A stretch of DNA of 57,205 nucleotides. Source: Spraguea lophii (Eukaryota > Microsporidia > Spragueidae). The notes under the pieces were generated by a model. That model searched no databases, was not told where the DNA came from, and saw nothing but the letters and a program-made list of their open reading frames with translations. This document shows, one piece after another, positions 505 through 56,038 of this stretch (positions within the stretch are counted from its first letter, which is position 1; every line of letters begins with the position of its first letter). Location of the stretch: positions 1-57,205 of the forward strand of contig LDOQ01000232.1 of NCBI GenBank assembly GCA_001887945.1. The letters are read 5' to 3'. The position numbers were made by a program, and so were the translations under genes.

Positions 505-2260
505 ATGCTTCTTCATTCTATCAAAATACCTGAGTTGTATAAAAATTATCAAACAAATATTATAAATATTTTGCCGGTTATTTATTACATGTTAATTCCG
601 ATTTATATTATAACAAATTTCATAAGAGATTATAATAATTATGACGGCTTAAAATTTAATACTAATCTGACCAATATAAGATAAATATACCCTACCAAAG
701 GTATAGAATTAGAAGGAAAACATAATAGAAAACCCGAAAACAATTATACTAGACAAGAAAGAAATGGTAATTTCTACGAAGAAGAAATAAATTACAAAAA
801 ATGTATTGTGTAAATTATTTAAACAACTAGCTACAATAGAATTGATTTACTTAAAAATTTTATCTATATGTATAAAGACGAGAAAATATATTAAAGATAT
901 CAAAAATAATTTAAGAGTGATATTTAAATATTACAGATATAATTCCTTCCCTAATATCTCAAATAATTAGAGGTATAACAGAAACTGAAATGATAAAATA
1001 TCTAATTTTCTTATTCAATAATACAAACAAAATTAAAAATAACAAACATATTAATATGCTAAAATGATTAAAATAAACGAAAAAATGCATAAATCAGAAT
1101 AAAACAGATTATTTATCTTCATTATATTATATGGTAAAACAAAGAATACGTGTGGTAATTGTATAGAAAAACGATATTTAAATAATATTCAGAAATACTA
1201 TACAAGAAAACCAACAAATATAGTTAATATAAGAAAAACTACAGTAGATAAACCAATGTAATAATAGTTGTGGTGTAAAAACAATAAACAACTAGTTTTA
1301 ATAAAAAAAACAATAATTATAAACAGTATAAATAATAAAATATCATCTGAGGACAAAGAAATCATCGATAAAGAAAAGATTGAAAACCCTCTAAAGATTC
1401 AATACGATGGAAAAGTTATAAAAATCAATTTCAAAAAATATAATTTTAAATTATTATTTAAAACCATTGTGTTCAAATATTATATAGATAATGACATATT
1501 TGATCACACCGCTATTAAAATATATTATTATAGATGTATATACTTATCTCGGAAAATGTATAATATTATTTATACCGATAATGTAAACAATTAAAAAATT
1601 TGATAATATTCAAAGAAAATACATGTAATATACAATCAAGTATATTTAATATACCTTCTTCCATATACGAACTAAAAAATAAAATCATCAATAAAATATA
1701 TTCTTCGAAAAAATAACAGATGAGATAAAGACAACAAGTTATATATATTATTATATCACATGCTATTCTTATATAGTACCTAAATGATTCTTACGAATAT
1801 AATATACTGTGGTATATCAAATTATAAATTATAATGTCGAATGTATTACAAAGATATTTAAAGAAATATATAATATCATAGCAGAAAAAAGTATATAATA
1901 CATGTGTATTAAAGCTTATTGAATATTATTATTTCGTAATCAATTATTGTGTTTCGAGATATAAGAACCTATATATAACAATGAATACCTTCAGATTTAT
2001 AACTGAAGATACAAAGATAATAGAAAGTCTGGGTAAATTATACAAACATTTTAAACAAATAAACATAAAATCAAACAAAATCCAATAATTATATTTATTG
2101 CTGGATACTGTTTAAAAACTGAAGATGAAATAATATTATTTTATATGATGAAAATATTACATGGTGTGTTTAATAGAAAATTGTATTTATTTATAACTTT
2201 AATAACAGTAAAAACAAGTATATTCTGCTTATATATAAATTTATTAATACTGTAGATTGT
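505..2260 (+). pseudogene. Decayed protein gene, unidentified
   Basis: Protein-like stretches follow each other on the plus strand but jump between frames and are broken by stops. An ATG at 505 opens a frame of 59 codons with a hydrophobic segment (around ILPVIYYMLIPIYIIT). It ends at a TAA at 682 and then stays open in the same frame to 811. Frame 3 is open over about 936-1064 (contains QIIRGITETEMIKYLIF). Frame 2 is open over about 1076-1258 (contains YGKTKNTCGNCIEKRYL) and again over 1268-1591. Further pieces occur near 1620-2090 and 2081-2254. The longest piece, at 1268-1594, has no ATG at its start and is probably not a gene by itself. I do not recognise the family. The pattern is what an old inactivated gene looks like, but chance open frames in AT-rich DNA cannot be excluded. 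Confidence 0.4.
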
Positions 2261-3161: not shown

Positions 3162-6100
3162 ATGCAAACATATTTTTTCATAGACACCAAAAATTTTAAC
3201 AGATACAAAACAAAGTATAACAGCTATATAAAGATGACAAATTCCATATTACTTTATGGTAATGGTGCTAATGAATTTATAGAATCATATTATACTAAAG
3301 AATATGATTTACATAATGGATCTAAATATCATAATATTATGGTATTGGATGCAAGAGAAGTATTGGATCCCAAATTATTAGTGGGATCATATACAATAGA
3401 TGGAGGGCAGTTGGAAGAAAATGAAGGAATATTGATAACTGCTATCAAAGGAGGTAAAAAGTTTATTAACAATAAAATAAATAATAACAAAAGTAATATA
3501 ACTGGTAATAATACTTATAATGATAACAATATAAATACTAACATCATTAATAATACTGATATCAATAATACAAATATCAATTATGATATAGAATCTATAT
3601 TTATTATAAAAAATATACATATGAATTTACCATTACTTAATTTTCTACAACCTCTTATATACGAGAATAAAATAGAAAATTTCAAAAATAAAATATTCTA
3701 CAATAAGAAATTTAAATTGATATTAACATCAGAAATAGATATAGAAGGTAGATACTTTAAGATTAATGTTACAAATGATTATAATAATATTTTATACAAT
3801 GGTTATAATACAAATGATAATCAAAATAATGATATAACTGATAATAATAAACTTAATGATAAATTATATGATAGTAATATAACTGATAACGATAAATTAA
3901 ACAATAAAAATAAGAACGATAGTAATATAAATATTATAGAAAATAAAATATTAATAAAATATACAAAAGAATATATAGGTACAGATAAAGAATTCAATAT
4001 AAAAAATATATTAAGATTATATAATACATATAATTATACTAACAGTATAAAAGATAGAGTATGGTTATATAATATAATATCTACAATATTATATTCATGT
4101 GATACAATAGAAGAAAAAAAGAATAAAGAATATGAATTAAGAAAAGATCTGGTATTAGCAGAATCTGATATAAGTAATTATAATAATAACAATATTAGAA
4201 ATAATAACATAGATAAAACAGATAATAAGAATAATGAATATAACAATAATCATAATTATAACATAGATTATAAATCTATAATAGATAATATAGATTTAGG
4301 ATTAACTACAAATCTTAAATATCTTATAAAAGATATAATATTTTCTATAAATAATAATCTACCAGTATTGTTGATAGGAGATACTGGTACAGGTAAAACT
4401 ACATTAATACAACAGATACATAATATTATTTATAATTATGATGGAGATAATAAATATAATAATAGATTATTGGTATATAATATTTCTGCAGATACCGAGT
4501 TATCGGATTTAATAGGTAGTTATAAAAGTTTTGATGTAAATAATTTATTTAATAGAATAGAAGAATATCTAAAAGAAAATGATAATAATGATAACAATGA
4601 TATAAATGATATTGATATAGATAATGTAGATAAAATAAATGATAACAATGATATAGATAAGATAAATGATATATCTGAGAAAATAGTATATTATAAAGAA
4701 TTATTACATAAGAATAATATAAATATCTTTAATAAAGATATTGCTATAGCTTCTAAAATAATAAATTCTAAGAATAATTTATATTACAGTCATTCTATGC
4801 TAATAGAAGCTATGGAGAATGGGTATTGGATATTATTAGATGAAATAAATTTATGTAATAATGAAGTATTACAAGCATTGGATAGTATATTAGATACTAA
4901 TAAACATTATAATCTATATAATACGAATGGAGATGATAATTGTTGTTATATTAATATAGAATTTATGGATGAGAGAATACGTATACATCCTAATTTTAGA
5001 GTATTTGCAACTATGAATCCAGAGGGTATAGGTAAGAAAGATTTTAATACTAAAACTTTTACTAAGATATATTGTGATGATTTTAGTAACAGAATAGATG
5101 ATATAGAAATAGTAACAGAATATATTCTTAAAAAGAAACAAGATGAAAAATATTATAATAATTCACAATGTTACGATAACAATAATACTGATGAGGTTAC
5201 TAATATTTATAATAGTACTTTTATTTATGCAATATCTCAATTTTATTATACTTTACGTAAGAATATGTCTAAATTATATGGGTATGGTAAGAAGCCTTTA
5301 ATTTCCGGTAGAACATATTGTCGAGTATTGAAAGCTATTCAGGAAGAGGAAGAAGTGTATAAAATAATAAATTTATTGATATTAACACAGTTAGAACCTG
5401 AGAGTAAAAATAAGGTTGTTAGTGAGAGTACATTTTTACAGGAATATAGAAATAAGATGATAAATGGTAATAAAAAAGATTGTAATAGAAATAAATATAG
5501 CGTAACTACTAATATAAAGAATATTAATAATAATTTTATAATAACGCCTGAGATATATAATAGATTGTGTTTAATATCTACTGCTATAGATTTAAATATA
5601 AGTGTATTATTAGAAGGAAGTACATCTACGGGTAAAACATCTATTTTATTATATTTAGCTAATTTATACGATAAGAAGATAATAAGAATAAATAATCATG
5701 AGAATACCGATAGTAGTGATTATATAGGTAGAATGATAATTAAAAATAATAATGATAATAATGACGGGGAGAATACAAATAAACACGACAGAGAGAATAA
5801 TAACAATAATGTGTTGAATACACAATTTATGCCAGGTCCATTATTTGATGCTTTAACAAATGGGCATTGGCTTCTTTTAGATGAATTAAACTTATGTTCT
5901 AGTGAAGTATTAGAACTTTTAAATTCCGTATTAGATGATAATAAATCATTATACGTTCCATTTATCAATAAAACCATCAAAGCACATAAAGATTTTAGAT
6001 TATTTGGAACACAAAACAGTGCACTTTATGGAGGAAGAAAGCAATTATCGGAAGCATTTAGAAACAGATTTGTAGAAATTAACTTTGGACTAATGAGTTT

Positions 6101-9100
6101 AGATGAGATAAAAGAGGTTATAGGCAAAATAAATACCAACGATAATATCATAAATACACATAACAACATTCAATATCTACCTACATTATTTGTTAATATA
6201 TTTATGGATGTTTATAAGATGTTATCATCTATTTCATCATCGTATATTACACTTAGAGATTTATTCAAATGGGTTTATAGATCTAATAGATGTATAAATA
6301 CATTATATTATAATGGTAAGATGGTATTTATAAATAGAATAAGAGAGAATAAAAAGGAAATAGAAAATATGTATAATCAAGTATTTTTTAAGCATAATAA
6401 AAATCATACAATAAATTTTTGTAATAACAATAGAAATAAGGAAATAGATAATCTATATGATATGTTAAATAATGAATATAAAACAGATAAATTATACAAT
6501 ATAATATATAATAATCAAGATAATAGAAATATAGAGAATAATAATAGATCTAATAGAGATATCGAGAATAATAGACATAATAAAGAATATTATAAAAACA
6601 CCAAAAATATAAATTTATTTGAATCACAGAAAATATTATTATTAAATATTTTAATATCTTTTCAGAATAATGAACCTATACTGATAGTAGGTGATACTGG
6701 AATGGGAAAAACAAAAGTATGTGAAATAATAAAAGATATAATAGAAAATAATGGAATGGAAATAATAAATTTACATGCAAATATAGAAGCATCAGATTTA
6801 ATAGGGCAATATACCATCAATAATAAAAATAATTATAATGCATATGATGATGATAACAAAGATTACAATAATAAAGATGATATAGATAAAAATAAATATA
6901 ATAAAGATGATGCAGATAACAATAATACAGATATAATATTTAGAGATGGTGTAGTTACTAGATGTATACGTAAAGGTAAAATATTATTATTAGATGAAAT
7001 TAATTTATGTTCAGATTCTGTTATAGAAAGAATAAATTCTATATTAGAAGTAGATAATAAAAATAATAACAATAAAGATAATACCAATAGTAATACTAAT
7101 TCTAACAACAATAAATCATTATTTATACCTGAAATAAACAGTAGTATATCTATACACTCTAAATTTAGAGTTATAGCTACTATGAATCCAGGAAATGATC
7201 ATGGAAAAAAAGAATTATCACCTGCACTTAGAAATAGGTTTACAGAGATATGGTATGAAATGAGTGATGAAGAAATAAAAAATGTATATGAAAATATGAT
7301 AGGTAATTTCTATTACAGTAAAATAAATGATAAATTGAATATAAGAAAAATAGAGTTAATAAGAAAATATATATTATATACCAAAGTAGAATATAATGCT
7401 ATGAGCAATGATAATAGTAGTGATGTTATAGGTGATGGTGATAGTAATGTTAATGATAGTAATAAAATAAAGAGAATAAAATATAATAGTAAATATATAA
7501 TAAATATAATAGAAGAAAGAAATATTTCTCTTAAAGAATATTTAAATAATTTAGAAGAAAAAATAAAATATAAAATATTCTTAGATGTTATAGAATTATG
7601 TAATATAAATAATAAAGAGAATAATAAAGAATATACAGATAATAATATTCATTATATAAATAATAGTAATATGGTAGGAGTAAAATATAATAATCAAATA
7701 TATTCTATAATAAAATATTATAATAATGATGATGATGATAATGATAGTAACAGTGATGATGATAACAATAACAAAGATACTATCACTTATAGCAATAATA
7801 GTAATAACAATGATAGTAATATCACTCTTACTGATATAAAATATAATTTTAATACTCCTACTACAGTATATAATCTATATAAAATATTACGCTCTCTTTC
7901 TCTTAATACGCCTATACTCCTTAGTGGAGAACCTGGGATAGGAAAAACTTCTATAATAGAAAATATAGGAAGATTATTAAATTATAATGTAGTAAGAATA
8001 AATCTGAGTGAAGGAACAGAGTTTAGTGATCTTATAGGACATTATATACCATACGTAGATAATAATAATACTGATAATAAAAATAAAGATACTAATGACA
8101 GAGGTAAAGATACCAATATAAAGATAAAATTTACTTATTCTTCATTCACCAGAGCATTGTTACAACCATATACATTTATAATATTAGATGAAATAAATCT
8201 ATGTACACAGAGTGTAATAGAAGGATTAAATAGTTTATTTGATTATAGAAGATCTATATACATATCAGAATTAGATCAAACTATAAAGATTAACCATTAC
8301 AAGAATAATAATACTAATAATATAGGTGATATAAATGATACTAATAATAATAATACGAATAGAAATGATAAAATAATATATACAGATAATATTTATGTAT
8401 TTGGTACAATGAATCCTTCTAATAATAAAAATAATAGAAAAATATTACCTAAGAGTTTTAATGATAGATTTATAAAAGTACATATGAATAAATACAATCA
8501 GATAGATATAGATCTTATAACAGAGAGTATAATTAATAATATAAATAATAAATATACTAATGATATCAGTGATAGTAATATTAATAAAGATATTACTAAT
8601 AAAACTGATAATAATGATATAAACAATCTATCATTAAGAGAAAGAAAGATAAGTATAGCTATAGGTAGTAACTATTATAAAAATATAAATATTACATATT
8701 ATTTTGGATATTATATTAGAATAGGTAGAGTAATAATAGAAGATATAAATAATAATCTTATTACATTTAATTATGATAGAGATAATAGAATTGATAGAGA
8801 TAATGATTATACTATTACTAGCAATCGTATAAATCATATTAATGATATCAATGATATAAATATAAATTATAGAACAATAATAAATAATAAAAGAATAACT
8901 ATAATAGATGAATATTCATATTCTAATATAAAAGATATAGATATTCTATTAAATAATAATGATGATAATAATAAAAATGGTATAAATGATACTACTAATA
9001 ACAATAATACTAAACATATTAATCACAGTAATATTAACAATAATATAAATTATATTTTATTGCATAAACAATTATCTTCTATACATAATATTCTTATAGC

Positions 9101-12100
9101 TTATGTAAAGAAAATACCTATTATTCTTAGAGGTAGTGGTAGAAATAGTTTTATAAACTTTATATCTAATATATTTAATCATAAGATAGATAGAATATAT
9201 TGTTATAATGAAATAGATACTAATGATTTAATAGGAATGTATGTAGTAGATATAGATTATAATAAATATAATAATAGTAATATAGATAATAGTTATAACA
9301 ATAATAATGGTAATGATAATAAAAGTAGTGATGATAAGAGTAGTATAAAAGATTATAACAATAATAATACAGTAGATAATACAATAGATAATAGTAATAC
9401 CAAATTAAAAGTATATTGGAGTAATAGTAAATTAATAGAAGCATTAAATAATGGATCATTAATAGTTTTTAATAGACCAGAATTAGTAGAATATTCTGTA
9501 TTTGATAGATTAAATTCTTTATTTGAAGAAAATAGAGAATTATATATAACAGAAAGATCGCATGACAGTAATAATACGATACATGATAATACTAATATAA
9601 CTAATAATAAACATAGTATAACTAAGAATACTAATAAAGTTGATATAAAAGATAATACTAGATTAATATTACTAACAGAATATAATCTATCTCCTGCTAT
9701 AGAAGATAGATGTTATAAAGTAGAATTAGAAGAAAATAAAACTATAACAGATATATATAAGATACTAAGATCTAATAGTAAAGATATAAATGATATAAAT
9801 GATAATACTTATACTATTGATAGTAATACTACTAATAATCATATAATGAATGAAGAATATATAGAATATAGAAATAATAAAATAAATAATAGTATTAAAT
9901 ATTTGATGAATAAAGAAACTATGATAATAGAAGGATTAAGAAATAAATTATTATCTTTCATACACTTAGATAATAATATAGATGATATAGATGATAGTAA
10001 TACAAACATAAATACTACATATAATAATATAGATAATACAGATAATATAATAAGTAATATAAATAATAATTTATTATATCTAAATAATTATTTTAATAAT
10101 TATTTATATGAAAATGATATAGAAAATATGTTTATAAGAATATTAGATATAAAAGATTATAATACTAATAATATAGATTATAATAATAGTAATATAGATA
10201 ATACTACGTATAACAATGATAGTGAGATAAAAGAAATATATAATTTTTATAAAGAAATAAATAATTATAAAGATGATATCGATTCTTTGTATAATACATT
10301 CTGTAATAATAAAGATAATAATATTAATAATACTACTAATATATCATTTAAAGAATATATAAGATTAATAGAATATAAGGATAAAGAAGAATATAAATAT
10401 GCTAAGAGTATAGAAGAATATAAAATATTTTATATTCTTAATAATAAATATAATGATAGTGGAAATGATAATAGAGATAATATGAATGATGGTAAATATA
10501 TTAATATACATGGTAATAACCATACCAATACACATGATAACATACATAATATTAATAATAACCATATAAATAATTTATTATATGCTACTGCATTACCTGA
10601 ATATTCTTATGATAATAATTTATATTTAAAATTATTATCTTATGCATCTGTATCTGATCCTTTATATTTAATTCTTTATAGCATAAACAATACTAAGAGA
10701 GATATATTGGTAGAATTAAAGAATATGTATAAATATAATAGATATGATAGAGATAAGGTATATAGATATATAAACAATAGAGATAAATATATAAATGTAA
10801 TAGAAGCAATAGAAAGAAAGATAAAAGATAGAAGAAATATTATAAATGTAATAAAAGAAGAATATAATTGTATATATGATGGTTATGATGATAGTAATAA
10901 TAATAGAGATAAGTATATTGATAATAAGGATATTAATATTACCAATGATATTACTAATACATATAACAATAATACTAATAGTAGTATCTATAAAATAATA
11001 TATAAGATATTAAATAATAATAAAGAATATGAAGATATATTAACTTATAGAATAATATATTATTATAATAAAATAATAAAGAATACATATTACTCTTATT
11101 ATAATATATTAAATTATTATTATGATATAAACGATAAAGATGATAACATAAATACTATTAAAAATAATATTAAAGATAATATAAATAATCTTAGTATCAC
11201 CAATAATAACATAAATGATATAAATGATATAAACAATAATACTACTATTACTACGATTAAGAATATAATTAATTATATAGGAATAATAAAAGATATAGAA
11301 ATAAAAGAATATCATTCTGAATTATTCTATAATATTTTAAATAATAGAAAATGTAGAAGATCTTTATTATCTAATGTAGTATATGAATGTATATCTAATA
11401 TTACATATAATAGAGATAATAATATAGATTTAGAGATAAAGAATGAACATTTAGATTTATTAATAAAATATATAAATACTAATAATAAAAATGATGATAA
11501 GATAATAGATGGTAAGAATGATAAGAATAAGGATGATGACAGTAATAAAGATACTGATACTAATAAAAATATTATTACTACTAATAAAGATAAAGATAGA
11601 ATAGACTATAGAAATTATATTTATTTAATAACAAGAGATTATGATATAAAAATATTAGAAGAATTTATTATCAGTGGTACTGTTAAAGAATTTAAAGATA
11701 GATTATATTTTATAATAGAAATTATATTACAGTATTATAATAAGTATAATAAAGATGATATTACTACTAATAAATATAACAGAGATAATAATAATACTAC
11801 TACGAATATTACTAATAAAAATGCTATTAGAGGTGGGATAACCTTTAGTAATCCTAATCATAATATAATATTATATTATATTTATAATAGAATATTTGAT
11901 TATGATAAAATATTATATATGTATAATCTATCTTTACAATATATAGCATATAATATATTAAATAAAGATATAGAAGGTAGTAATATGGTTATAGGATATT
12001 TAAAAGATATAAATATTAATGTTAGAGATACGTGTATATGTAATAAAGATAATAATTTAGATAAAAATAATAGTGAAGGTAATGATAATGATAATAAAAA

Positions 12101-14417
12101 GAAGTATGATAATGAAGGTAATAAACATAATCTGGATAATAATATAATAAAAATATTATTAAATAGATTATTGTATAATAATAAAGATAGTTCTATCAAT
12201 GAATGTGAATGTATGAAATGGAAAAGATGTAGAAATATAGATATATCTACTATTAGAAAGATATTAGATAATATATATAAAGAATATAAAATAAATTATA
12301 ATCTTAAAGATTATTATCTAAGAGAAGTAATTCATAAAAAAAATAATGATAATATAGATGATATAAATAATTATAATAACGATATAAACGGTAATATAGA
12401 TAATGATGACATAGATAATATAAATAATAATAATAACAATGATATACATGATGTAAATGATAACGATAATACAACCAATATAAATATAAATAATATAGAA
12501 TTGTATGGTAGAAAAGAAATAATGATAGCCAAGATATTTGTTAAGAGTATAAATTACAATGATGAATTATTTAATAAGTTATTTTATTTAATTTTATATA
12601 AAAATATTTATTCTGCCAATAATAAAAATAATAATTACGAGTATGTAATAAATTATATATATTTTATTATGCATATATTTACATCTACTCTTACTGAAGA
12701 AGGTACTGGTATTAGAGAAGGTGCTGGTGTTGATAATATATCAGATATTGAATATGAAGAAGAATTGGGTTCTGATGGTAATGGTGATGATAGTGATAAT
12801 GGTGATATAGAAGAAGATGATGGTGTGGATATGGAAAATAAGGGAGATAAGTATGATGTAGATATAGAAAATGTGGAAGATATAGAAGATGTAGATAGTG
12901 GGAATATCAGTGATGGAGAAGAATGTAATATTGATTATAATAAAAATGATGATAATGAAGACGGTAAAGATACAAATGAGGATGGTAAAGATATAGATGG
13001 CGATGTAGAAGGTGATAATAATGATGCTGCGGATGATGATACAAATAATGATATTATGAATGATAATGAGAATATAAAAGATGATGATGAAATAGGGGAA
13101 GTAGAAGAATTTATAACTAATTATAATGATGAAGATGATAGTATTAATGAAGCTACAGAAGATGAAGATAGTGAAATAGAAGATGAAGATAAAGAAATAG
13201 AGGAAGTAGAAGATGTAGATAATGAAATCGAAGAAATAGATAATATCAACGATAAAGAAGGTAATAACATAAAAGAAAATGATAAAGATACAATAGAACA
13301 ACAGATATCACCCTCAGAATACAAACCATCCACAAATATCATAAATGCTGAACAATCCACAACAAACGTAGAGGTAGATAACTACACCCCAGAATGTTAT
13401 ACGAACGAAGGAACAGAAGAAGGATATGAACTTTCAGCAGAAGGAACAGAAGAAAACAGAGACAGAATAAAAAATACCACAAATAAAAATATAGATACAA
13501 ATACCATTTACAATAAATCAATAGATAAATTATATAACCATCTATCATATATCCTAGAACAGAATAAAAAGAATAAATACCAAGGAAATTATAAATCAGG
13601 AAAAAAAATAAATACGAAGAAGATAATAGATCTAGTAGTATTTAATGATACAAAGATATGGATGAAGAAAATATATAGTGATAGAGAATATACAGTAAGA
13701 TTGTTTATCGATAACAGTCAGTCTATGAACAACAATAAAAATAGAGATGATAGGAATGGTATGCGTAATAACAGTTTAACAAGTAATAGAAATGAAATGA
13801 GTAATATAAGCAATAATAACATAAACAATAACAATGATAATAACATAGATACTATTACAGAGAATAGTTCTGTAAAAGAAATAACAGAGAATACATATAA
13901 AATGTTATATAAAACATTAAAGAGATTTAATATAAATGTAGAAATGTATAGATTTGGAGAGAAATTAACAAAATTATCTTTACACGAAGATAATAACATG
14001 TATACTACTAACATAAATACTACTAATACATATAATAATATATCATTTATAGAGAAAGATACAGATGTTAATTTTATTAATGATTATACAGATGGTATTA
14101 ATATAATTATTAGTGATGGATTATTTCATAGTGTATTACCAGTATCTAATAATTTTCTATTAGTAATAGTAGATAGTAATATAATTAATATTAATAAAGT
14201 AAGAATAGACAATGATATAAATATTAATAACAATAGTATATATGGTAATAGTATATATGGTAATAATACTAATAGCAATAGCAATAGTAATGCTAATATA
14301 AGAATAATAAGATATTTAGATTCTTTGTATATTAATTATGTAATAGTAAATAATATAGAAGAAATAGAAGATAAAATAATAGAAGGTATAGATAAGATGT
14401 TTAGAAATATTATTTAA
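3162..14417 (+). CDS. MDN1: Midasin, AAA+ ribosome-maturation ATPase
   Basis: Midasin (Rea1/Mdn1) is the dynein-like AAA+ machine that strips assembly factors such as Rsa4 and Ytm1 from pre-60S ribosomes in the nucleus. The protein of 3751 aa shows six AAA modules. Module 1 (from residue 24) has a degenerate P-loop (GNGANEF). Modules 2-5 have good Walker A motifs at about residues 404 (GDTGTGKT), 815 (GSTSTGKT), 1174 (GDTGMGKT) and 1584 (GEPGIGKT), each followed by LLDE-type Walker B motifs with the NLC signature. Module 6 (about 1986) is degenerate (GSGRNSF; FNRPEL). A linker follows, then an Asp/Glu-rich segment (about 3185-3380) and a C-terminal MIDAS domain with the D-x-S-x-S motif DNSQS near 3512 and SDG near 3650. 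It is shorter than yeast Rea1 (about 4900 aa), although Asn/Asp-rich runs interrupt nearly every module. CCC at 3152-3154 supports this ATG. Confidence 0.95.
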   Translation: MQTYFFIDTKNFNRYKTKYNSYIKMTNSILLYGNGANEFIESYYTKEYDLHNGSKYHNIMVLDAREVLDPKLLVGSYTIDGGQLEENEGILITAIKGGKKFINNKINNNKSNITGNNTYNDNNINTNIINNTDINNTNINYDIESIFIIKNIHMNLPLLNFLQPLIYENKIENFKNKIFYNKKFKLILTSEIDIEGRYFKINVTNDYNNILYNGYNTNDNQNNDITDNNKLNDKLYDSNITDNDKLNNKNKNDSNINIIENKILIKYTKEYIGTDKEFNIKNILRLYNTYNYTNSIKDRVWLYNIISTILYSCDTIEEKKNKEYELRKDLVLAESDISNYNNNNIRNNNIDKTDNKNNEYNNNHNYNIDYKSIIDNIDLGLTTNLKYLIKDIIFSINNNLPVLLIGDTGTGKTTLIQQIHNIIYNYDGDNKYNNRLLVYNISADTELSDLIGSYKSFDVNNLFNRIEEYLKENDNNDNNDINDIDIDNVDKINDNNDIDKINDISEKIVYYKELLHKNNINIFNKDIAIASKIINSKNNLYYSHSMLIEAMENGYWILLDEINLCNNEVLQALDSILDTNKHYNLYNTNGDDNCCYINIEFMDERIRIHPNFRVFATMNPEGIGKKDFNTKTFTKIYCDDFSNRIDDIEIVTEYILKKKQDEKYYNNSQCYDNNNTDEVTNIYNSTFIYAISQFYYTLRKNMSKLYGYGKKPLISGRTYCRVLKAIQEEEEVYKIINLLILTQLEPESKNKVVSESTFLQEYRNKMINGNKKDCNRNKYSVTTNIKNINNNFIITPEIYNRLCLISTAIDLNISVLLEGSTSTGKTSILLYLANLYDKKIIRINNHENTDSSDYIGRMIIKNNNDNNDGENTNKHDRENNNNNVLNTQFMPGPLFDALTNGHWLLLDELNLCSSEVLELLNSVLDDNKSLYVPFINKTIKAHKDFRLFGTQNSALYGGRKQLSEAFRNRFVEINFGLMSLDEIKEVIGKINTNDNIINTHNNIQYLPTLFVNIFMDVYKMLSSISSSYITLRDLFKWVYRSNRCINTLYYNGKMVFINRIRENKKEIENMYNQVFFKHNKNHTINFCNNNRNKEIDNLYDMLNNEYKTDKLYNIIYNNQDNRNIENNNRSNRDIENNRHNKEYYKNTKNINLFESQKILLLNILISFQNNEPILIVGDTGMGKTKVCEIIKDIIENNGMEIINLHANIEASDLIGQYTINNKNNYNAYDDDNKDYNNKDDIDKNKYNKDDADNNNTDIIFRDGVVTRCIRKGKILLLDEINLCSDSVIERINSILEVDNKNNNNKDNTNSNTNSNNNKSLFIPEINSSISIHSKFRVIATMNPGNDHGKKELSPALRNRFTEIWYEMSDEEIKNVYENMIGNFYYSKINDKLNIRKIELIRKYILYTKVEYNAMSNDNSSDVIGDGDSNVNDSNKIKRIKYNSKYIINIIEERNISLKEYLNNLEEKIKYKIFLDVIELCNINNKENNKEYTDNNIHYINNSNMVGVKYNNQIYSIIKYYNNDDDDNDSNSDDDNNNKDTITYSNNSNNNDSNITLTDIKYNFNTPTTVYNLYKILRSLSLNTPILLSGEPGIGKTSIIENIGRLLNYNVVRINLSEGTEFSDLIGHYIPYVDNNNTDNKNKDTNDRGKDTNIKIKFTYSSFTRALLQPYTFIILDEINLCTQSVIEGLNSLFDYRRSIYISELDQTIKINHYKNNNTNNIGDINDTNNNNTNRNDKIIYTDNIYVFGTMNPSNNKNNRKILPKSFNDRFIKVHMNKYNQIDIDLITESIINNINNKYTNDISDSNINKDITNKTDNNDINNLSLRERKISIAIGSNYYKNINITYYFGYYIRIGRVIIEDINNNLITFNYDRDNRIDRDNDYTITSNRINHINDINDININYRTIINNKRITIIDEYSYSNIKDIDILLNNNDDNNKNGINDTTNNNNTKHINHSNINNNINYILLHKQLSSIHNILIAYVKKIPIILRGSGRNSFINFISNIFNHKIDRIYCYNEIDTNDLIGMYVVDIDYNKYNNSNIDNSYNNNNGNDNKSSDDKSSIKDYNNNNTVDNTIDNSNTKLKVYWSNSKLIEALNNGSLIVFNRPELVEYSVFDRLNSLFEENRELYITERSHDSNNTIHDNTNITNNKHSITKNTNKVDIKDNTRLILLTEYNLSPAIEDRCYKVELEENKTITDIYKILRSNSKDINDINDNTYTIDSNTTNNHIMNEEYIEYRNNKINNSIKYLMNKETMIIEGLRNKLLSFIHLDNNIDDIDDSNTNINTTYNNIDNTDNIISNINNNLLYLNNYFNNYLYENDIENMFIRILDIKDYNTNNIDYNNSNIDNTTYNNDSEIKEIYNFYKEINNYKDDIDSLYNTFCNNKDNNINNTTNISFKEYIRLIEYKDKEEYKYAKSIEEYKIFYILNNKYNDSGNDNRDNMNDGKYINIHGNNHTNTHDNIHNINNNHINNLLYATALPEYSYDNNLYLKLLSYASVSDPLYLILYSINNTKRDILVELKNMYKYNRYDRDKVYRYINNRDKYINVIEAIERKIKDRRNIINVIKEEYNCIYDGYDDSNNNRDKYIDNKDINITNDITNTYNNNTNSSIYKIIYKILNNNKEYEDILTYRIIYYYNKIIKNTYYSYYNILNYYYDINDKDDNINTIKNNIKDNINNLSITNNNINDINDINNNTTITTIKNIINYIGIIKDIEIKEYHSELFYNILNNRKCRRSLLSNVVYECISNITYNRDNNIDLEIKNEHLDLLIKYINTNNKNDDKIIDGKNDKNKDDDSNKDTDTNKNIITTNKDKDRIDYRNYIYLITRDYDIKILEEFIISGTVKEFKDRLYFIIEIILQYYNKYNKDDITTNKYNRDNNNTTTNITNKNAIRGGITFSNPNHNIILYYIYNRIFDYDKILYMYNLSLQYIAYNILNKDIEGSNMVIGYLKDININVRDTCICNKDNNLDKNNSEGNDNDNKKKYDNEGNKHNLDNNIIKILLNRLLYNNKDSSINECECMKWKRCRNIDISTIRKILDNIYKEYKINYNLKDYYLREVIHKKNNDNIDDINNYNNDINGNIDNDDIDNINNNNNNDIHDVNDNDNTTNININNIELYGRKEIMIAKIFVKSINYNDELFNKLFYLILYKNIYSANNKNNNYEYVINYIYFIMHIFTSTLTEEGTGIREGAGVDNISDIEYEEELGSDGNGDDSDNGDIEEDDGVDMENKGDKYDVDIENVEDIEDVDSGNISDGEECNIDYNKNDDNEDGKDTNEDGKDIDGDVEGDNNDAADDDTNNDIMNDNENIKDDDEIGEVEEFITNYNDEDDSINEATEDEDSEIEDEDKEIEEVEDVDNEIEEIDNINDKEGNNIKENDKDTIEQQISPSEYKPSTNIINAEQSTTNVEVDNYTPECYTNEGTEEGYELSAEGTEENRDRIKNTTNKNIDTNTIYNKSIDKLYNHLSYILEQNKKNKYQGNYKSGKKINTKKIIDLVVFNDTKIWMKKIYSDREYTVRLFIDNSQSMNNNKNRDDRNGMRNNSLTSNRNEMSNISNNNINNNNDNNIDTITENSSVKEITENTYKMLYKTLKRFNINVEMYRFGEKLTKLSLHEDNNMYTTNINTTNTYNNISFIEKDTDVNFINDYTDGINIIISDGLFHSVLPVSNNFLLVIVDSNIININKVRIDNDININNNSIYGNSIYGNNTNSNSNSNANIRIIRYLDSLYINYVIVNNIEEIEDKIIEGIDKMFRNII

Positions 14418-30460: not shown

Positions 30461-30629
30461 TTTTTAATAAAACTTTTATTTATGGAAGTCTCCTAAACGT
30501 CTGCGGCCTACCGTGATCTATGACATTTAATTCCTAAAGCACATTTAAACGTGTATTACCCGGGTTTTCGGTATATACGCATTAATCTCATCTTACCTTG
30601 TGCTCCAGAATGTTGAGATTTTGTGTACT
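30461..30629 (-). repeat. 5'-truncated SINE copy (f)
   Basis: On the minus strand this covers only the 3' third of the SINE, from the CCAGAATGTTGAGATTTTG block to the A-rich tail (ATAAATAAAAGTTTT). It is still well conserved (TCTGCGGCCTACCGTGATCT; TATACGCATTAATCTCATCT). It is flanked by AAATTTTAGTAT (30449-30460) and AAATTTTTGTAT (30630-30641), which differ at one position and look like a target-site duplication. The flanks 30224-30448 and 30642-30842 hold nothing else recognisable. Confidence 0.75.
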
Positions 30630-44186: not shown

Positions 44187-47100
44187 ATGGAAATGGCACA
44201 TAAATTAATTGGAACTTATAATATAGCAAAAGAGATAAATAATAATACAAATTATGAAATACAATTTTATATCGATGAAACAATACAAAATACAAAAGAA
44301 AATTTTAAAAATAATAATGATGACAATGAAGAAAATGAAAACTATAATAATATTCTTATTATTGTAGATGACAAAGATACACCAGAATTTAATAACATAA
44401 ACGATTATCGAGATATTTCATTTAAATCCTTTTTAGAAAAAATAAAACAATTCAATAATAAAATCAAAGGAAAAAATAAATCACAAAAAGTTGTAAAAAT
44501 GTTAGAAAATATCAATTTTGATAAAAACGAAGATAATACAAATAAAAAAATTGTAAATAATAATATAATAATCACAGTATCTAAATTTTTAAAAATTGTG
44601 TTACACGGTCTGTTAGATATCAATAGCTTTTCTAAGATTATAATAAAAAGCGAGATTATAAGAAAGGAATTGATTACTGGTTTTAAATATTTTTATTTTC
44701 TTAGATACAAAGAAAATGTAAATTATATACGTAAAATACAAATTATTTTATATACAGCAGAAGAAATAACAGAGAATATAAAATTATATTTCAACATACC
44801 GGATTCCCAAATAGAAGATAAAAATAAAGAAAATAATACATCGCAGTTTAATAAGATAACATCATCACATGAAATAGAAATAATAATGTATACAGATAAC
44901 AATAATAAATTTACAAAGCTAATGGAATTGGTAAACGAATATGATGAATATAAAATATATTTTTTAAAAACAGAATATGATCCTAACGAAAATATTTTAT
45001 TTAAAATAACAAACATACATTTCATAAAAACAGAAGATGAAGAAGAACAATTCATAAATTCAAATAATATTCATAAAAATTTTACACAAGATAAAAATAT
45101 AAAAAATGATTTCTTTATGAATAGAAACAATATTTTAATTATTTATGATAATTTAAACACATATGATATATTACCTAAAGATATATTGTATCATAAAACA
45201 TTTTATTTCCAACACAAAGGAAATAGTTATACGAACCTTTGTAAACTTAGAGAAACTTTATTTGTACAAAAAGTTAATGAGGAAAAAAAGACTATAAGAT
45301 ATATTTATAAGGATAATCCATACATCATTAAAAATGAAAACGATGATATCAATATTACGTATGCTGTTATACCATTTGGATTTAGTGCTCTTTTTCTCGA
45401 TCATATTCTTATAATGATAAAAGATATATTTGAATCTCAGTATTTATATATAAAAGATATATCTAAAATTACTATAAATTATAGAGAAGTTACGTGTGAT
45501 AAAACATATGAAGATATTTTAAATATACACACTGATAGAGAAAATGTTGATACTTCCAATAATAATTATTTTATATGTTTATTATCTTTACCACCTGTAC
45601 ATTCATCATATGTATTCAATTGTACATTTATTAGTACACCATATAGTAAAAAACGTGATGCACAAAAAGATGTAGCAATAAAAATAATAAATGAAATGGT
45701 TAAATGTGAATTAATCGATAATAATTTTATTCCTGATCCTAAAACATATTTAGAAAATAATAAAAATTTTAAGAATATGCTTCTAACGGCATATCATGAA
45801 AAAGAGAATATAAATTTATTAAATTACACAAAAGATTATAATTTTATACTAAATAATATAAAAGGTATTAATGAAATTAAAACAGCAAAACATAATGTTG
45901 AAGATGTTAAAAAGAAAATAAAGAAAAAATATAGTATTTTTATAAATAAAGAAAATATAAATCATGATACTGAAGTTGAAATAGATGTTGTATATAGAAA
46001 AATACCAAAATGTCTTAATGATTCTATAAAAATAGAAAATATTATAATAGACGGTAAAGAAGAAAACACAGTTGAATTATATTGTTATCTTTTTAAAAAT
46101 AAAAATTCCGAAAATACAGGAATATTATGTAATAAATCATTTATAGGAGATATCCATCTTCCAATATTATCAATATATTATTTAGGAAAATATAATATAA
46201 ATGAATTACAAATGAAATATATTTTATTTTATCAGATAACATACTTTTCTTTATATTGCAATAGAAAATCAAATATGGAAGCAAGTAATTTTTATAAAAC
46301 TGATAAAATATCTAAGACAAAAAAATATAATTATTTAATGGTACCAATAAAAGATAATAAAATAAATTTTCAATATCTTGAACAAGTTTGTAAAAATTAT
46401 TTGATATCTAATGTATTCAAACAAATAGAAAATAATAATTTAGATATATTATATAATAATATTTTATTTAATCCATTTACTAAACAATATTATATTTATG
46501 GTACAACATCAGAAAAGAAAATGACGGATAAAATATCAATGAATTATAAAAAATCGGATAAAAAAAATAAAAAAGAATCTCTATATACTGGATATTTAAC
46601 TGAAGAATATGAATCATCAGATGAAGAAAATGAAATTAAAATAAAGAATAAAACGTATTATGAATATTTTGAAGAAAAATATAATATTAGATTAATATAT
46701 AAAGACGCGAAACATTTAATGTTTAAAGGATTTTTTTATATTGGTTGTAAAGGAAAGATATTGAATAAATATAATATAAACAGTGTGAGTATAGGACAGC
46801 GAAAGAATGATAATGATTGTAAAATAGAAAGGAAACCAATTGTCAGAGGAAAAGTATCAGTTATTTTAAGTTCTGAAATATTACATGTGACAAATTTTAA
46901 AATCACGGAACTTGTAGATTTTCATAATTTTATGTATAATTTATATATTTTTGAGTCTGTTTCATTAGCAGAAGAATATAGAAAAGAATATGATATGGAT
47001 ATAGATTTAATGTTAGTGATGAAAGCTTTAACACATAAAAATATATTTAATAATGTAGAAGAAGAAATGACAAATACACCACAATCTAATTTTAATTATG

Positions 47101-48314
47101 AAAGATTAGAATTTTTAGGAGATACTATTTTTAAATATTTAGTATCGCAACATTATTTTTTAAGTTCAGATGAAAATAATACTACGGGGTCTATAGTCGA
47201 TATGAAATGTGAAGATATTTGTAACAAAAATCTTTATTCTGTATCAAAAAATTTAGGAATAGAAAAATATATGACAATAGTAAAATATCATAATGAATTA
47301 TTTCAAACACCTTCTTTAGAATTTTTGTTAAATTATTGTGAGCCATTTAAAAAAGAATACGTAGATAAAAATCTAAATAAAAATAAATCAAAAAATCTAT
47401 CAGAGTTTATAGAAAAAGTATTAGAATTTTTTGATTCAACAGAAATTTTCCAATCAAAAACACAACATGATTTTTTAGAAAACCAATGTACAGCTTCTTC
47501 TAAAAATGAAGAAAATACTATTCATCACAAAAAAATATTTGCGGATGTTGTAGAAGCATTAGTAGGAGGAATATTTTTAACTTCGGGTTTAGAAAATACC
47601 CGAGAAAAATTATATAAAATGAATATTCTGAAAAATAACAGCCAAATAGAAAATATAAAATTAAATTTAAATGATATATCTGAATATCCAACAATAAAAA
47701 AATTATATGAAAATTTTAATTTATTAAAAGAAGATGAAATAAAATACACAGAAGAAATTTTAAAATATCAATTTAAGAATAAAAGTTTAATAGAAAAAGC
47801 TATGATACATACCTCGTATAACATAGAAGGTCGAAGACCAGATAAATCTTTATTTCATAAATTAGAACTTATTGGCGATGCAATATTAGATTTAGTAGTA
47901 ACCATGGAAGCGTGGTTAGATAATGATGAAGCTATGATAAATTATAATATAGAAGAATTAAGAATTCATATAAAAGAAATAGAATCTTATAAAAAAAGAA
48001 ATATAAAATTAAAAAATATTACACCTGAGGATTTACATACTTACAGAAGAAAAAGAGTTAACAATAATTTGTTAGGGGTTATCCTGTATAAACTTAATTT
48101 ATTCAATGTTATGAAAACACATAAAAATAATTCTAATATTGTTGAAAAAGATTACAAAGATGTTATAAATAATATTAATAATGGAAATAAAATAAGTAAG
48201 ATGTATGGGGATATTTTAGAAGCTATATGTGGGGCAATATTGATTGATTGTAATTTTAATGTTGATGTATTTTATACGTTTTATAAAAAAGTTATAAAGA
48301 ATGCAAATAAATAA
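44187..48314 (+). CDS. DCR1: Dicer-like double RNase III, helicase lost
   Basis: Dicer cuts double-stranded RNA to siRNAs for RNA interference. The 1375-aa protein keeps a dimerisation-type dsRNA-binding fold (about 385-512, VIPFGFSALF ... YFICLLSLPP ... STPYSKKRDAQKDVAIKI) and a platform/PAZ-like region (about 620-900, YLMVPIKDNKINFQYLE, then YYEYFEEKYNIRLIYKDAKH). RNase IIIa has NYERLEFLGD (about 970) and FADVVEALVGG (about 1117). RNase IIIb has FHKLELIGDAILD (about 1223) and YGDILEAICGAI (about 1342). The acidic residues of both active sites are visible. The N-terminal 340 residues resemble a ruined helicase (IIITVSKFLKIVLHGLLDI), with no Walker A motif and no DExH box. There is no second dsRBD after RNase IIIb. 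The start lacks a CCC motif, although GGCC lies about 20 bases upstream. No Argonaute gene is in the window. Confidence 0.92.
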   Translation: MEMAHKLIGTYNIAKEINNNTNYEIQFYIDETIQNTKENFKNNNDDNEENENYNNILIIVDDKDTPEFNNINDYRDISFKSFLEKIKQFNNKIKGKNKSQKVVKMLENINFDKNEDNTNKKIVNNNIIITVSKFLKIVLHGLLDINSFSKIIIKSEIIRKELITGFKYFYFLRYKENVNYIRKIQIILYTAEEITENIKLYFNIPDSQIEDKNKENNTSQFNKITSSHEIEIIMYTDNNNKFTKLMELVNEYDEYKIYFLKTEYDPNENILFKITNIHFIKTEDEEEQFINSNNIHKNFTQDKNIKNDFFMNRNNILIIYDNLNTYDILPKDILYHKTFYFQHKGNSYTNLCKLRETLFVQKVNEEKKTIRYIYKDNPYIIKNENDDINITYAVIPFGFSALFLDHILIMIKDIFESQYLYIKDISKITINYREVTCDKTYEDILNIHTDRENVDTSNNNYFICLLSLPPVHSSYVFNCTFISTPYSKKRDAQKDVAIKIINEMVKCELIDNNFIPDPKTYLENNKNFKNMLLTAYHEKENINLLNYTKDYNFILNNIKGINEIKTAKHNVEDVKKKIKKKYSIFINKENINHDTEVEIDVVYRKIPKCLNDSIKIENIIIDGKEENTVELYCYLFKNKNSENTGILCNKSFIGDIHLPILSIYYLGKYNINELQMKYILFYQITYFSLYCNRKSNMEASNFYKTDKISKTKKYNYLMVPIKDNKINFQYLEQVCKNYLISNVFKQIENNNLDILYNNILFNPFTKQYYIYGTTSEKKMTDKISMNYKKSDKKNKKESLYTGYLTEEYESSDEENEIKIKNKTYYEYFEEKYNIRLIYKDAKHLMFKGFFYIGCKGKILNKYNINSVSIGQRKNDNDCKIERKPIVRGKVSVILSSEILHVTNFKITELVDFHNFMYNLYIFESVSLAEEYRKEYDMDIDLMLVMKALTHKNIFNNVEEEMTNTPQSNFNYERLEFLGDTIFKYLVSQHYFLSSDENNTTGSIVDMKCEDICNKNLYSVSKNLGIEKYMTIVKYHNELFQTPSLEFLLNYCEPFKKEYVDKNLNKNKSKNLSEFIEKVLEFFDSTEIFQSKTQHDFLENQCTASSKNEENTIHHKKIFADVVEALVGGIFLTSGLENTREKLYKMNILKNNSQIENIKLNLNDISEYPTIKKLYENFNLLKEDEIKYTEEILKYQFKNKSLIEKAMIHTSYNIEGRRPDKSLFHKLELIGDAILDLVVTMEAWLDNDEAMINYNIEELRIHIKEIESYKKRNIKLKNITPEDLHTYRRKRVNNNLLGVILYKLNLFNVMKTHKNNSNIVEKDYKDVINNINNGNKISKMYGDILEAICGAILIDCNFNVDVFYTFYKKVIKNANK

Positions 48315-48537: not shown

Positions 48538-48554
48538 TAACCGTCAAGTTACTT
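48538..48554. repeat. Target-site duplication of the young SINE, left
   Basis: TAACCGTCAAGTTACTT is repeated exactly at 49045-49061, on the other side of the element. Confidence 0.9.
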
Positions 48555-48981
48555 TTTTTTTACGAATGAAACTTTTATTTATCAAAGCTTCCTGGCCGGT
48601 TGCGGCCTACCATGGTCTGTGACCTTCGGTTCCTCGAGCGACATTAAACTTGTACTAACTGGTTTCACTACAGATATGCATTAATCTCATCTTACCTTAT
48701 GCTCCAGAGTGTTAGGATTTTGCGTATGGTGCGCGTCGCCGCCCCCACTTCCAGCTCTTAAGGAATTCCCAGCCTCTTTCGTTGCATAGTATTGGCCGAG
48801 TCACAAATCAATACAGGGATTGCAACTACATCAGCTAAACACTACTTTAATCTAGTAGCGGGGCCGTCATACAAGGCACAGCTATGCTGCGCTATCGAAA
48901 CCTCACCCACTCAACAACCTTTTTCTTCTCTTCTCCGTTTATTATTATTCTTTTTTTGTTTTGAAAAATTTTCTGGATGAG

Positions 48982-48992
48982 GGATTCGAACC
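48982..48992 (-). promoter_or_regulatory. Pol III B box of SINE h
   Basis: GGTTCGAATCC on the minus strand is a perfect match to the B-box consensus GGTTCGANNCC. Confidence 0.85.
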
Positions 48993-49025
48993 CGCCAGGC
49001 TTGGGGTTTGGTTACCACCCCACGA

Positions 49026-49036
49026 CCACTGGGCCA
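49026..49036 (-). promoter_or_regulatory. Pol III A box of SINE h
   Basis: TGGCCCAGTGG on the minus strand fits the A-box consensus TRGYNNARNGG. The gap to the B box is normal for tRNA-type promoters. Confidence 0.82.
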
Positions 49037-49044
49037 GGCGGGAC

Positions 49045-49061
49045 TAACCGTCAAGTTACTT
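49045..49061. repeat. Target-site duplication of the young SINE, right
   Basis: TAACCGTCAAGTTACTT, identical to 48538-48554. Confidence 0.9.
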
Positions 49062-53228: not shown

Positions 53229-53694
53229 TTTTTTAATGTGAAACATTTATTTATCGAAGTTTCCTGGTCAGTCGTGGTCTATGTCCTTTGTTCCATAACG
53301 TACATTTAAACTTGTACTAATTGGGTTTGCTACGGATATACATTAATCTCATCTTACCTCATGTCCCACAACATTATAATTTTGCATATGCTATATGGTA
53401 CCGATCCTCCCAATTTTTTAAAGATTTTTAATCTTTTCTTGGTATAATGCTGGCTAAGTTACGAATCAATACTGGATTGCAACCTTGCAAAATAAAGATT
53501 ACTTTGACCTAGTAATGAGGTTATCATACAAGGCATAATTAATATTACGCTATCGAATCCCAACACTCAACGACTTTCGCTTCTACCTTTTATTTTTTTT
53601 TTGAAAATTCTTCTGAGTGATGGATCCAAACCGTTAAACTTTGGATTTGGTTATCACACCACGACTATAGTAATAAGCAGGCGTGATAGACGGG
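53229..53694 (-). mobile_element. Full-length SINE, moderately decayed (copy j)
   Basis: On the minus strand the copy covers the full element from the tRNA-like head (53694 downward) to the ATAAATG tail and a T/A run. Its B box is damaged (GGTTTGGATCC at about 53622-53632 against GGTTCGAATCC). The body keeps TTTCCTGGTCAGTCGTGGTC, ATATACATTAATCTCATCTT and GACCTAGTAATGAGG blocks. Possible short target duplications (CGATTG near 53219 and 53711) are too weak to be sure. The changes relative to the young copy h are mainly toward A and T. Confidence 0.8.
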
Positions 53695-55528: not shown

Positions 55529-56025
55529 GAGAGCACGCTCAGCACAGTGGTCGTGAGGAGGTAATCAATTTCAAGCCTGATGGGTTCAAATCCCTCATCT
55601 AGAAGAATTTTCGAAAAAAATAATAATAAAAGATAGAAGAGAAGAAGAGAGAAAAAAGGTTGTTGAGTGGATGTAAGTTCAATAGCGCAGTATCAACTGT
55701 GCCTTGTATGACGGTCTCACTACCAGATTAAAATAGCGTTTAGCGAGTGTAATTGCAATCACTGTATTGATTTGTGACTTGGCCAATGCTATGCCATGAA
55801 AGAGGTTAGGAATCTCTAGAAAACTGGAAGGGGGCGTCGACGTGCATCATGCGCAAAACCCTAACGTTTTGGAATATAAGTTAAGATGAGATCAATGCAT
55901 ATCTATGACGAAACTAGTTCGTACAAGTTTAGATATGCTTTAGGAACTGAAGCTGAAGGTCTCAGACCATGGTAGACCCCAACCGGCCAGGTGACTTGTA
56001 TAAATAAAAGTTTATTAATAAAAAA
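55529..56025 (+). mobile_element. Full-length SINE on the plus strand (copy k)
   Basis: The copy has all parts. The tRNA-like head includes an A-box-like GCTCAGCACAGTGG at 55537-55550 and a B box GGTTCAAATCC at 55583-55593, which fits the consensus. The body follows (TTGTTGAGTGGATG, GTGCCTTGTATGACGGTCTC, GATGAGATCAATGCATAT, CAGACCATGGTAGACC, AACCGGCCAGG). The tail is ATAAATAAAAGTTTATT plus a run of seven to eight A. A 13-bp target duplication flanks it. It is the second youngest copy, and the only one on the plus strand. Confidence 0.88.
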
Positions 56026-56038
56026 AATAATGAATATT
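56026..56038. repeat. Target-site duplication of SINE k, right
   Basis: AATAATGAATATT, identical to 55516-55528. Confidence 0.82.

Follow-up and report, generated by a model that had tools for sequence, protein, structure and literature searches.

The tRNA-related SINEs of Aspergillus fumigatus, AfuSINE2 among them, are described in the available part of PMC5063351 as combining internal Pol III promoter features with a tRNA-unrelated region. They are 140-493 bp long with target duplications of 4-14 bp, and one of them resembles a LINE-like sequence. By description, the element of Spraguea lophii considered here is alike in these respects. It differs in number, as the A. fumigatus SINEs are low-copy whereas the Spraguea element occurs at well over 100 places, and in its tail, which is an A-run rather than the ACT repeats of one A. 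fumigatus SINE. The other relevant systems are stringent SINE/LINE pairs. According to the accessible text of PMC3747384, the SINE 3' end in such pairs comes from the partner LINE and may form a hairpin, and both elements may end in poly(A). The Spraguea pair is similar. However, its shared 3' end is split into two blocks whose spacer differs, and its hairpins lack covariation support.

For microsporidia, a repeat table of Nosema bombycis has a bulk SINE entry of 28,669 bp, equal to 0.18% of that genome; in the available part of the paper (PMC3614468) neither an element nor its structure, target duplications or a LINE partner are described. An earlier note on the DNA analysed here, made from the sequence alone, had stated that no well-described SINE family in microsporidia was known. 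No described family was found among the matches listed in the literature outside subscription papers, supplements and Repbase, and the word "SINE" is absent from the main text of PMC3749934, PMC4202319, PMC3486916 and PMC8206274. The statement has to be qualified by the bulk category of N. bombycis. S. lophii is a microsporidian of monkfish, and the part of PMC3749934 available to us reports retrotransposon transcripts in its spores, four non-LTR transcripts in one place and five LTR transcripts in section 6. These come from the same species as the SINE. The Spraguea SINE is a known kind of element in an unexpected host.

Structure of the element

The window, that is, the whole stretch of 57,205 nucleotides that was analysed, is contig C28 of a genome of 5.27 Mb in 73 contigs. 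It contains a 490-bp element on the minus strand (48555..49044), whose identity as a SINE is near certain. Very probably it is a young tRNA-class SINE of S. lophii that is retroposed by a LINE of the same genome, one having an APE-type endonuclease.

In the minus-strand sense the element begins with a tRNA-like head (element positions 1-72; 48973..49044). A two-box pattern search placed in it an A box TGGCCCAGTGG (49026..49036) and a B box GGTTCGAATCC (48982..48992), separated by 33 bases. When the A-box/B-box pattern was relaxed, it had a single match in the 57 kb window, and none in 100 shuffles. The head is followed by a run of five T (48964..48968), a possible Pol III terminator, and by a noncoding body (48645..48963). 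Then come a block that the SINE has in common with the LINE 3' UTR (element positions 401-455; 48590..48644), a 3' tail with ATAAATAAAAGTTTC (48562..48589) and an A-run of seven A (48555..48561), which is longer in many other copies. The 17-bp sequence TAACCGTCAAGTTACTT occurs as an exact match on the 3'-end side (48538..48554) and on the 5'-end side (49045..49061). The boxes with their spacing, the noncoding body, the A-run end and the perfect 17-bp duplication had all been claimed in the earlier note, and all are present, though the boxes are on the minus strand.

The longest stop-free frame has 43 codons in the sense direction and 72 on the other strand. At E-values up to 10, Rfam yielded only a 13-nt tmRNA piece over the B box (E 0.13) and one match with E 7.9, both unconvincing. 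We rejected the idea that the body is coding or that it corresponds to rRNA or another known RNA.

Further copies lie in the window: an older, nearly full one with 80% identity (55542..56026, plus strand), a decayed one in pieces with 73-90% identity (53239..53665, minus strand) and a 3' fragment with 77% identity (30466..30627, minus strand). The gene just upstream of the element (44187-48314) encodes Dicer; the protein has RNase III domains and is identical over 1375 residues to Dicer of S. lophii 42_110. Elsewhere in the window, positions 3162-14417 form a single open frame of 3751 codons.

Origin of the head and candidate Pol III signals

The head was compared with 40 tRNA genes of the 57 listed. 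The best score was with Leu(tag), 17.5, followed by Arg(tcg), 17.0; the largest best-of-40 score among 200 shuffled heads was 14.5. Neither ARAGORN nor Rfam called the head a tRNA. Judged by these scores, the head appears tRNA-like and not traceable to a single tRNA, Leu(tag) and Arg(tcg) being near-equal candidate parents. The earlier description of the element as tRNA-derived has to be softened accordingly.

The two boxes constitute a candidate internal Pol III promoter. In 36 of 40 tRNA genes the first downstream run of at least four T is T5 or longer. We compared T-runs in 68 full SINE copies whose identity to the window copy is 94% or more. In 67 of them the longest internal run does not exceed four (four T in 63 copies, three in 4), which appears compatible with Pol III transcription. 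The window copy is the only one with five T. Since this run directly follows the head, the window copy may be a poor source, and the compatibility does not extend to it.

Copy number and genome share

In a genome DNA search with the window copy as the query (best 40 of 456 candidates scored), at least 40 copies, the query included, matched over their full length at 97-100% identity, and 4 others matched in part. Patterns of 20 bases with at most three mismatches were found at 180 places for the B box (reversed control 0), at 117 places for the central part (control 0) and at 353 places for the 3' tail (control 11). Such many dispersed copies are characteristic of SINEs. The 180 B-box places are far from the handful of copies below which the earlier note would have given up its reading. 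If all 180 copies were full length, they would make up 1.7% of the genome, and we estimate the share roughly at 1-2% of 5.3 Mb. The excess of 3' tails over heads (353 vs 180) is suggestive of 5' truncation; however, the GC-rich head also decays faster.

Seven of the 73 contigs (C3, C19, C35, C36, C46, C47, C48) begin inside a SINE copy, and seven further ones (C15, C22, C25, C54, C56, C58, C60) appear to do so by match positions. Several of these starts fall at the same element position. They are probably an assembly artefact concealing copies, and the family explains some contig breaks of the assembly.

A preference for tRNA neighbourhoods was considered using 105 SINE places of 180 (100 from the B-box pattern list and 5 from the DNA search) and 57 tRNAs. 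The observed and expected numbers of places near tRNAs are 2 vs 1.0 within 200 bp, 5 vs approximately 1.7 within 500 bp, and 5 vs 2.8 within 1000 bp. The excess is weak, hence no preference is claimed.

Age and source lineages

Among 112 distinct SINE matches, 78 are full-length and were retained, and 34 partial ones were left out. The median divergence of the 78 copies from the column majority is 1.43%; 68 of them diverge by less than 4%. The closest pairs show no difference at the compared columns (smallest nearest-neighbour divergence 0%). The family is young. Most of these loci were picked via the B-box pattern list and are biased to an exact B box, so lower divergence of the head is not claimed.

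Low divergence could also be explained by one or few sources, and the body has no known relative in Rfam; both would be in line with retropseudogenes that stem from a single functional Pol III RNA of the cell, as opposed to a SINE with its own source copies. Against this, at 18 columns (two being gap variants) 12% or more of the 68 young copies show a second state, suggesting that there were several source lineages, and the divergence, ranging from less than 1% to about 20%, suggests long-lasting amplification. Moreover, a 3' part common to a LINE is not expected for a cellular RNA. We consider retropseudogenes very improbable, and interpret the copies as a SINE family.

The G+C content is 46% in the SINE and 43% in the LINE piece, compared to 22% in the window. 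In the 68 young copies, the per-site frequency of changes from G/C to A/T is approximately double that of changes in the opposite direction (1.66% vs 0.75%).

Target duplications and empty sites

Of the 78 full-length SINEs, 56 are flanked by an exact duplication of 9 bp or more, 54 by one of 10 bp or more, and 50 by one of 12 bp or more. The duplication lengths range from 9 to 17 bp, and 42 of them measure 13-15 bp. In the control, 22 of 6006 mismatched flank pairs reached 11 bp. When up to two mismatches were allowed, duplications were seen in 54 of the 67 SINEs whose identity to the window copy is 95% or more and in 2 of 11 older copies, compared to 1.6% of control pairs. The absence of target duplications, which would have spoken against a SINE, can be set aside given the 54 copies with exact duplications of at least 10 bp. 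The target consensus in the flanks of full-length copies is AT-rich with no clear motif. A is lacking in front of the duplication, but this is due, at least in part, to the rule used for matching.

At locus L087 (G000:C45:91500-94600), two SINE copies lie in inverted orientation (944-1439, plus strand; 1690-2186, minus strand) with their flanking duplications exchanged, as expected if recombination between the copies inverted the segment of about 250 bp between them. This locus supplies 2 of the 22 control pairs reaching 11 bp.

When the flanks of 54 copies were joined, eight had a match elsewhere spanning the junction. The four listed are paralogous empty sites that contain the target once and no element, some of the alignments having small gaps near the junction. 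The pairs are L002 and L031 (84% over 295 bp), L077 and L078 (85% over 144 bp), L055 and L004 (79% over 176 bp), and L096 with L036 and others (74-76%).

Target duplications of variable length and an A-rich 3' end are both typical of SINEs. One could instead think of a DNA element (MITE) or of a small LTR element with tRNA-like boxes, since LTR elements that are non-autonomous and contain small-RNA-like sequences have been described (PMC10886601, available in part). Yet the lengths of both the duplication (9-17 bp) and the A-run vary, and by eye there are neither inverted-repeat termini nor a terminal direct repeat, making an element of either type extremely improbable.

The resident LINE

The earlier note had predicted an active reverse transcriptase elsewhere in the genome, and a non-LTR retrotransposon with 3' UTR sequence common to the SINE was indeed found. 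A reverse transcriptase search of the genome gave nine matches, two of them non-LTR by our reading (C72 and C48). The LINE piece at C72:3-1439 contains reverse transcriptase and endonuclease-like segments and is cut by the contig end. Its Pfam matches are weak and do not reach the curated cut-offs, with an E-value of 0.0018 for RVT_1, 0.0019 for Exo_endo_phos_2 and 0.051 for Exo_endo_phos. The same holds for the Exo_endo_phos match (E 0.00066) of a separate first piece, which lies in another frame. Relatives of the C72 element carry an Exo_endo_phos endonuclease together with RVT_1, and it is mainly from them that the putative APE-type label is taken. No intact full-length LINE was seen in the genome, the best piece being contig-cut and having a frame change.

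Degenerate relatives occur at C48, C21 and C1. The 3' half of the LINE lies at the start of contig C21, and a relic at about C1:71203-71763 is similar to both halves. A search from the 3' half (best 40 of 109 candidates scored) gave 41 rows, of which 17 are LINE places and the other 24 match the shared block alone, at known SINE places.

In five of seven 5'-truncated LINE copies the two flanks match over 10-22 bp, similar to the duplications of the SINE, and none of 42 mismatched pairs reach 10 bp. The remaining two, L116 and L117, have flanking matches of 7 and 5 bp, and three longer copies with the 5' flank near a contig start have matches of 3-6 bp. LINE pieces are found at several contig ends; as contigs break in repeats, this gives no sign either way of subtelomeric LINE arrays.

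Several other observations were made at these loci. At L123, a SINE fragment directly follows a LINE 3' copy (93% over 30 nt). By our reading, L108 (G000:C21:1-5000) has two consecutive non-LTR elements, both 5'-truncated, at the contig start, and then a 68-bp LINE piece, 98.5% identical to C72, in an open frame otherwise unlike the LINE. Of the nine reverse transcriptase matches, L099, L100, L101 and L104 were set aside as Ty3/gypsy-like by motif reading; the frames of L099 and L101 are open over 515 and 395 codons, respectively. L103 and L106 were likewise set aside, as one telomerase-like frame. The frame at L103 (G000:C2:66528-66776) is asparagine-rich, 1239 aa long, and resembles telomerase reverse transcriptase by motif reading. 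The remaining match is at C5:73895 (L105).

The shared 3' end

Comparison of the SINE end with LINE 3' ends, suggested in the earlier note, produced a block of 43-55 nt at 84-93% identity together with, in some copies, a short terminal motif. In the genome, SINE positions 401-455 align with the LINE 3' UTR at 84% over 55 nt (E 4.2e-9), and the identity rises to 93% over 43 nt with LINE copies L112 and L120. LINE copy L115 does not have most of the block. The stretch preceding the A-run contains ATAAATAAAATTTTC in the LINE and ATAAATAAAAGTTTC in the SINE, with 14 of 15 positions identical. In comparison with 500 shuffles, this terminal motif is matched by 0-3 of them for 4 of 11 LINE copies and by 2-152 for the other seven, and it is weak in several copies. 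The distance from the block to the A-run is about 130 nt in the LINE and about 35 nt in the SINE, the LINE having approximately 100 nt between the block and the terminal motif that are absent from the SINE. The shared 3' end is therefore discontinuous. Sequence common to the 3' ends of a SINE and a LINE of one genome is present nevertheless, and the proposed partnership is well supported by the sequences.

The shared-block RNAs of the SINE and the LINE are predicted to fold into the same two hairpins. The z-scores of three sequences are -1.6, -3.1 and -1.5, and only one of the three is much more stable than its shuffles. Counted covarying pairs in the hairpins were no better than in shuffles, which do as well or better; conservation by compensatory changes was not observed in the SINE/LINE block.

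These data bear on how the LINE would recognise the SINE. Both elements end in an A-run, their blocks lie at different distances from it, and the block fold has no covariation behind it. It is possible, if doubtful, that the A-run alone is recognised, in the relaxed manner of mammalian L1, and that the block is a now unneeded relic of the origin of this real SINE. On the other hand, the block is up to 93% identical over 43 nt between SINE and LINE copies whereas the sequences on either side of it differ, and even old SINE copies retain it in recognisable form. Recognition involving the block itself seems the better candidate.

Sequence sharing by itself has no direction, so the LINE might have acquired its 3' UTR block from the SINE. 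This is very improbable: the old LINE relic L121 (C5) already has the block, the relic L125 (C9) has the block end and the UTR downstream of it, and a LINE tail on a SINE is the usual direction, as stated in the accessible part of PMC3747384. We favour transfer from the LINE to the SINE. The short LINE copies L119 (C8) and L120 (C6) begin within a few bases of the block start, a hint that reverse transcription stops or switches template there; this could be how the SINE was assembled. Patterns of 22 and 30 bases from the block had no exact matches in viral_contigs and genome_contigs, collections that do not hold eukaryote genomes.

Discussion

The likely life cycle of the element can be outlined as follows. 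RNA polymerase III would start at the internal A and B boxes and produce an RNA of about 500 nt, ending in the stretch borrowed from the LINE 3' UTR and the A-run. The LINE reverse transcriptase would recognise this 3' end, presumably at the shared block. The LINE would nick AT-rich DNA, and the SINE RNA would be copied in by target-primed reverse transcription, leaving duplications mostly of 13-15 bp. The family may be active at present.

As the G+C content of both elements is far above that of the window and the young copies drift to AT, recent horizontal entry is possible. A fuller scenario, which we regard as tentative and rather unlikely as a whole, is that of an active SINE/LINE pair in a reduced microsporidian that keeps Dicer, where the SINE captured the structured 3' UTR of the LINE and was amplified to more than 100 similar copies, and where the pair may have arrived recently by horizontal transfer.

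Microsporidia are a textbook case of genome shrinkage. A SINE with this genome share and a LINE partner indicate that retroposition can still build a shrunken genome. Its insertions provide markers for comparing S. lophii isolates, and the SINE/LINE pair allows one to ask whether the retained Dicer pathway restrains such elements.
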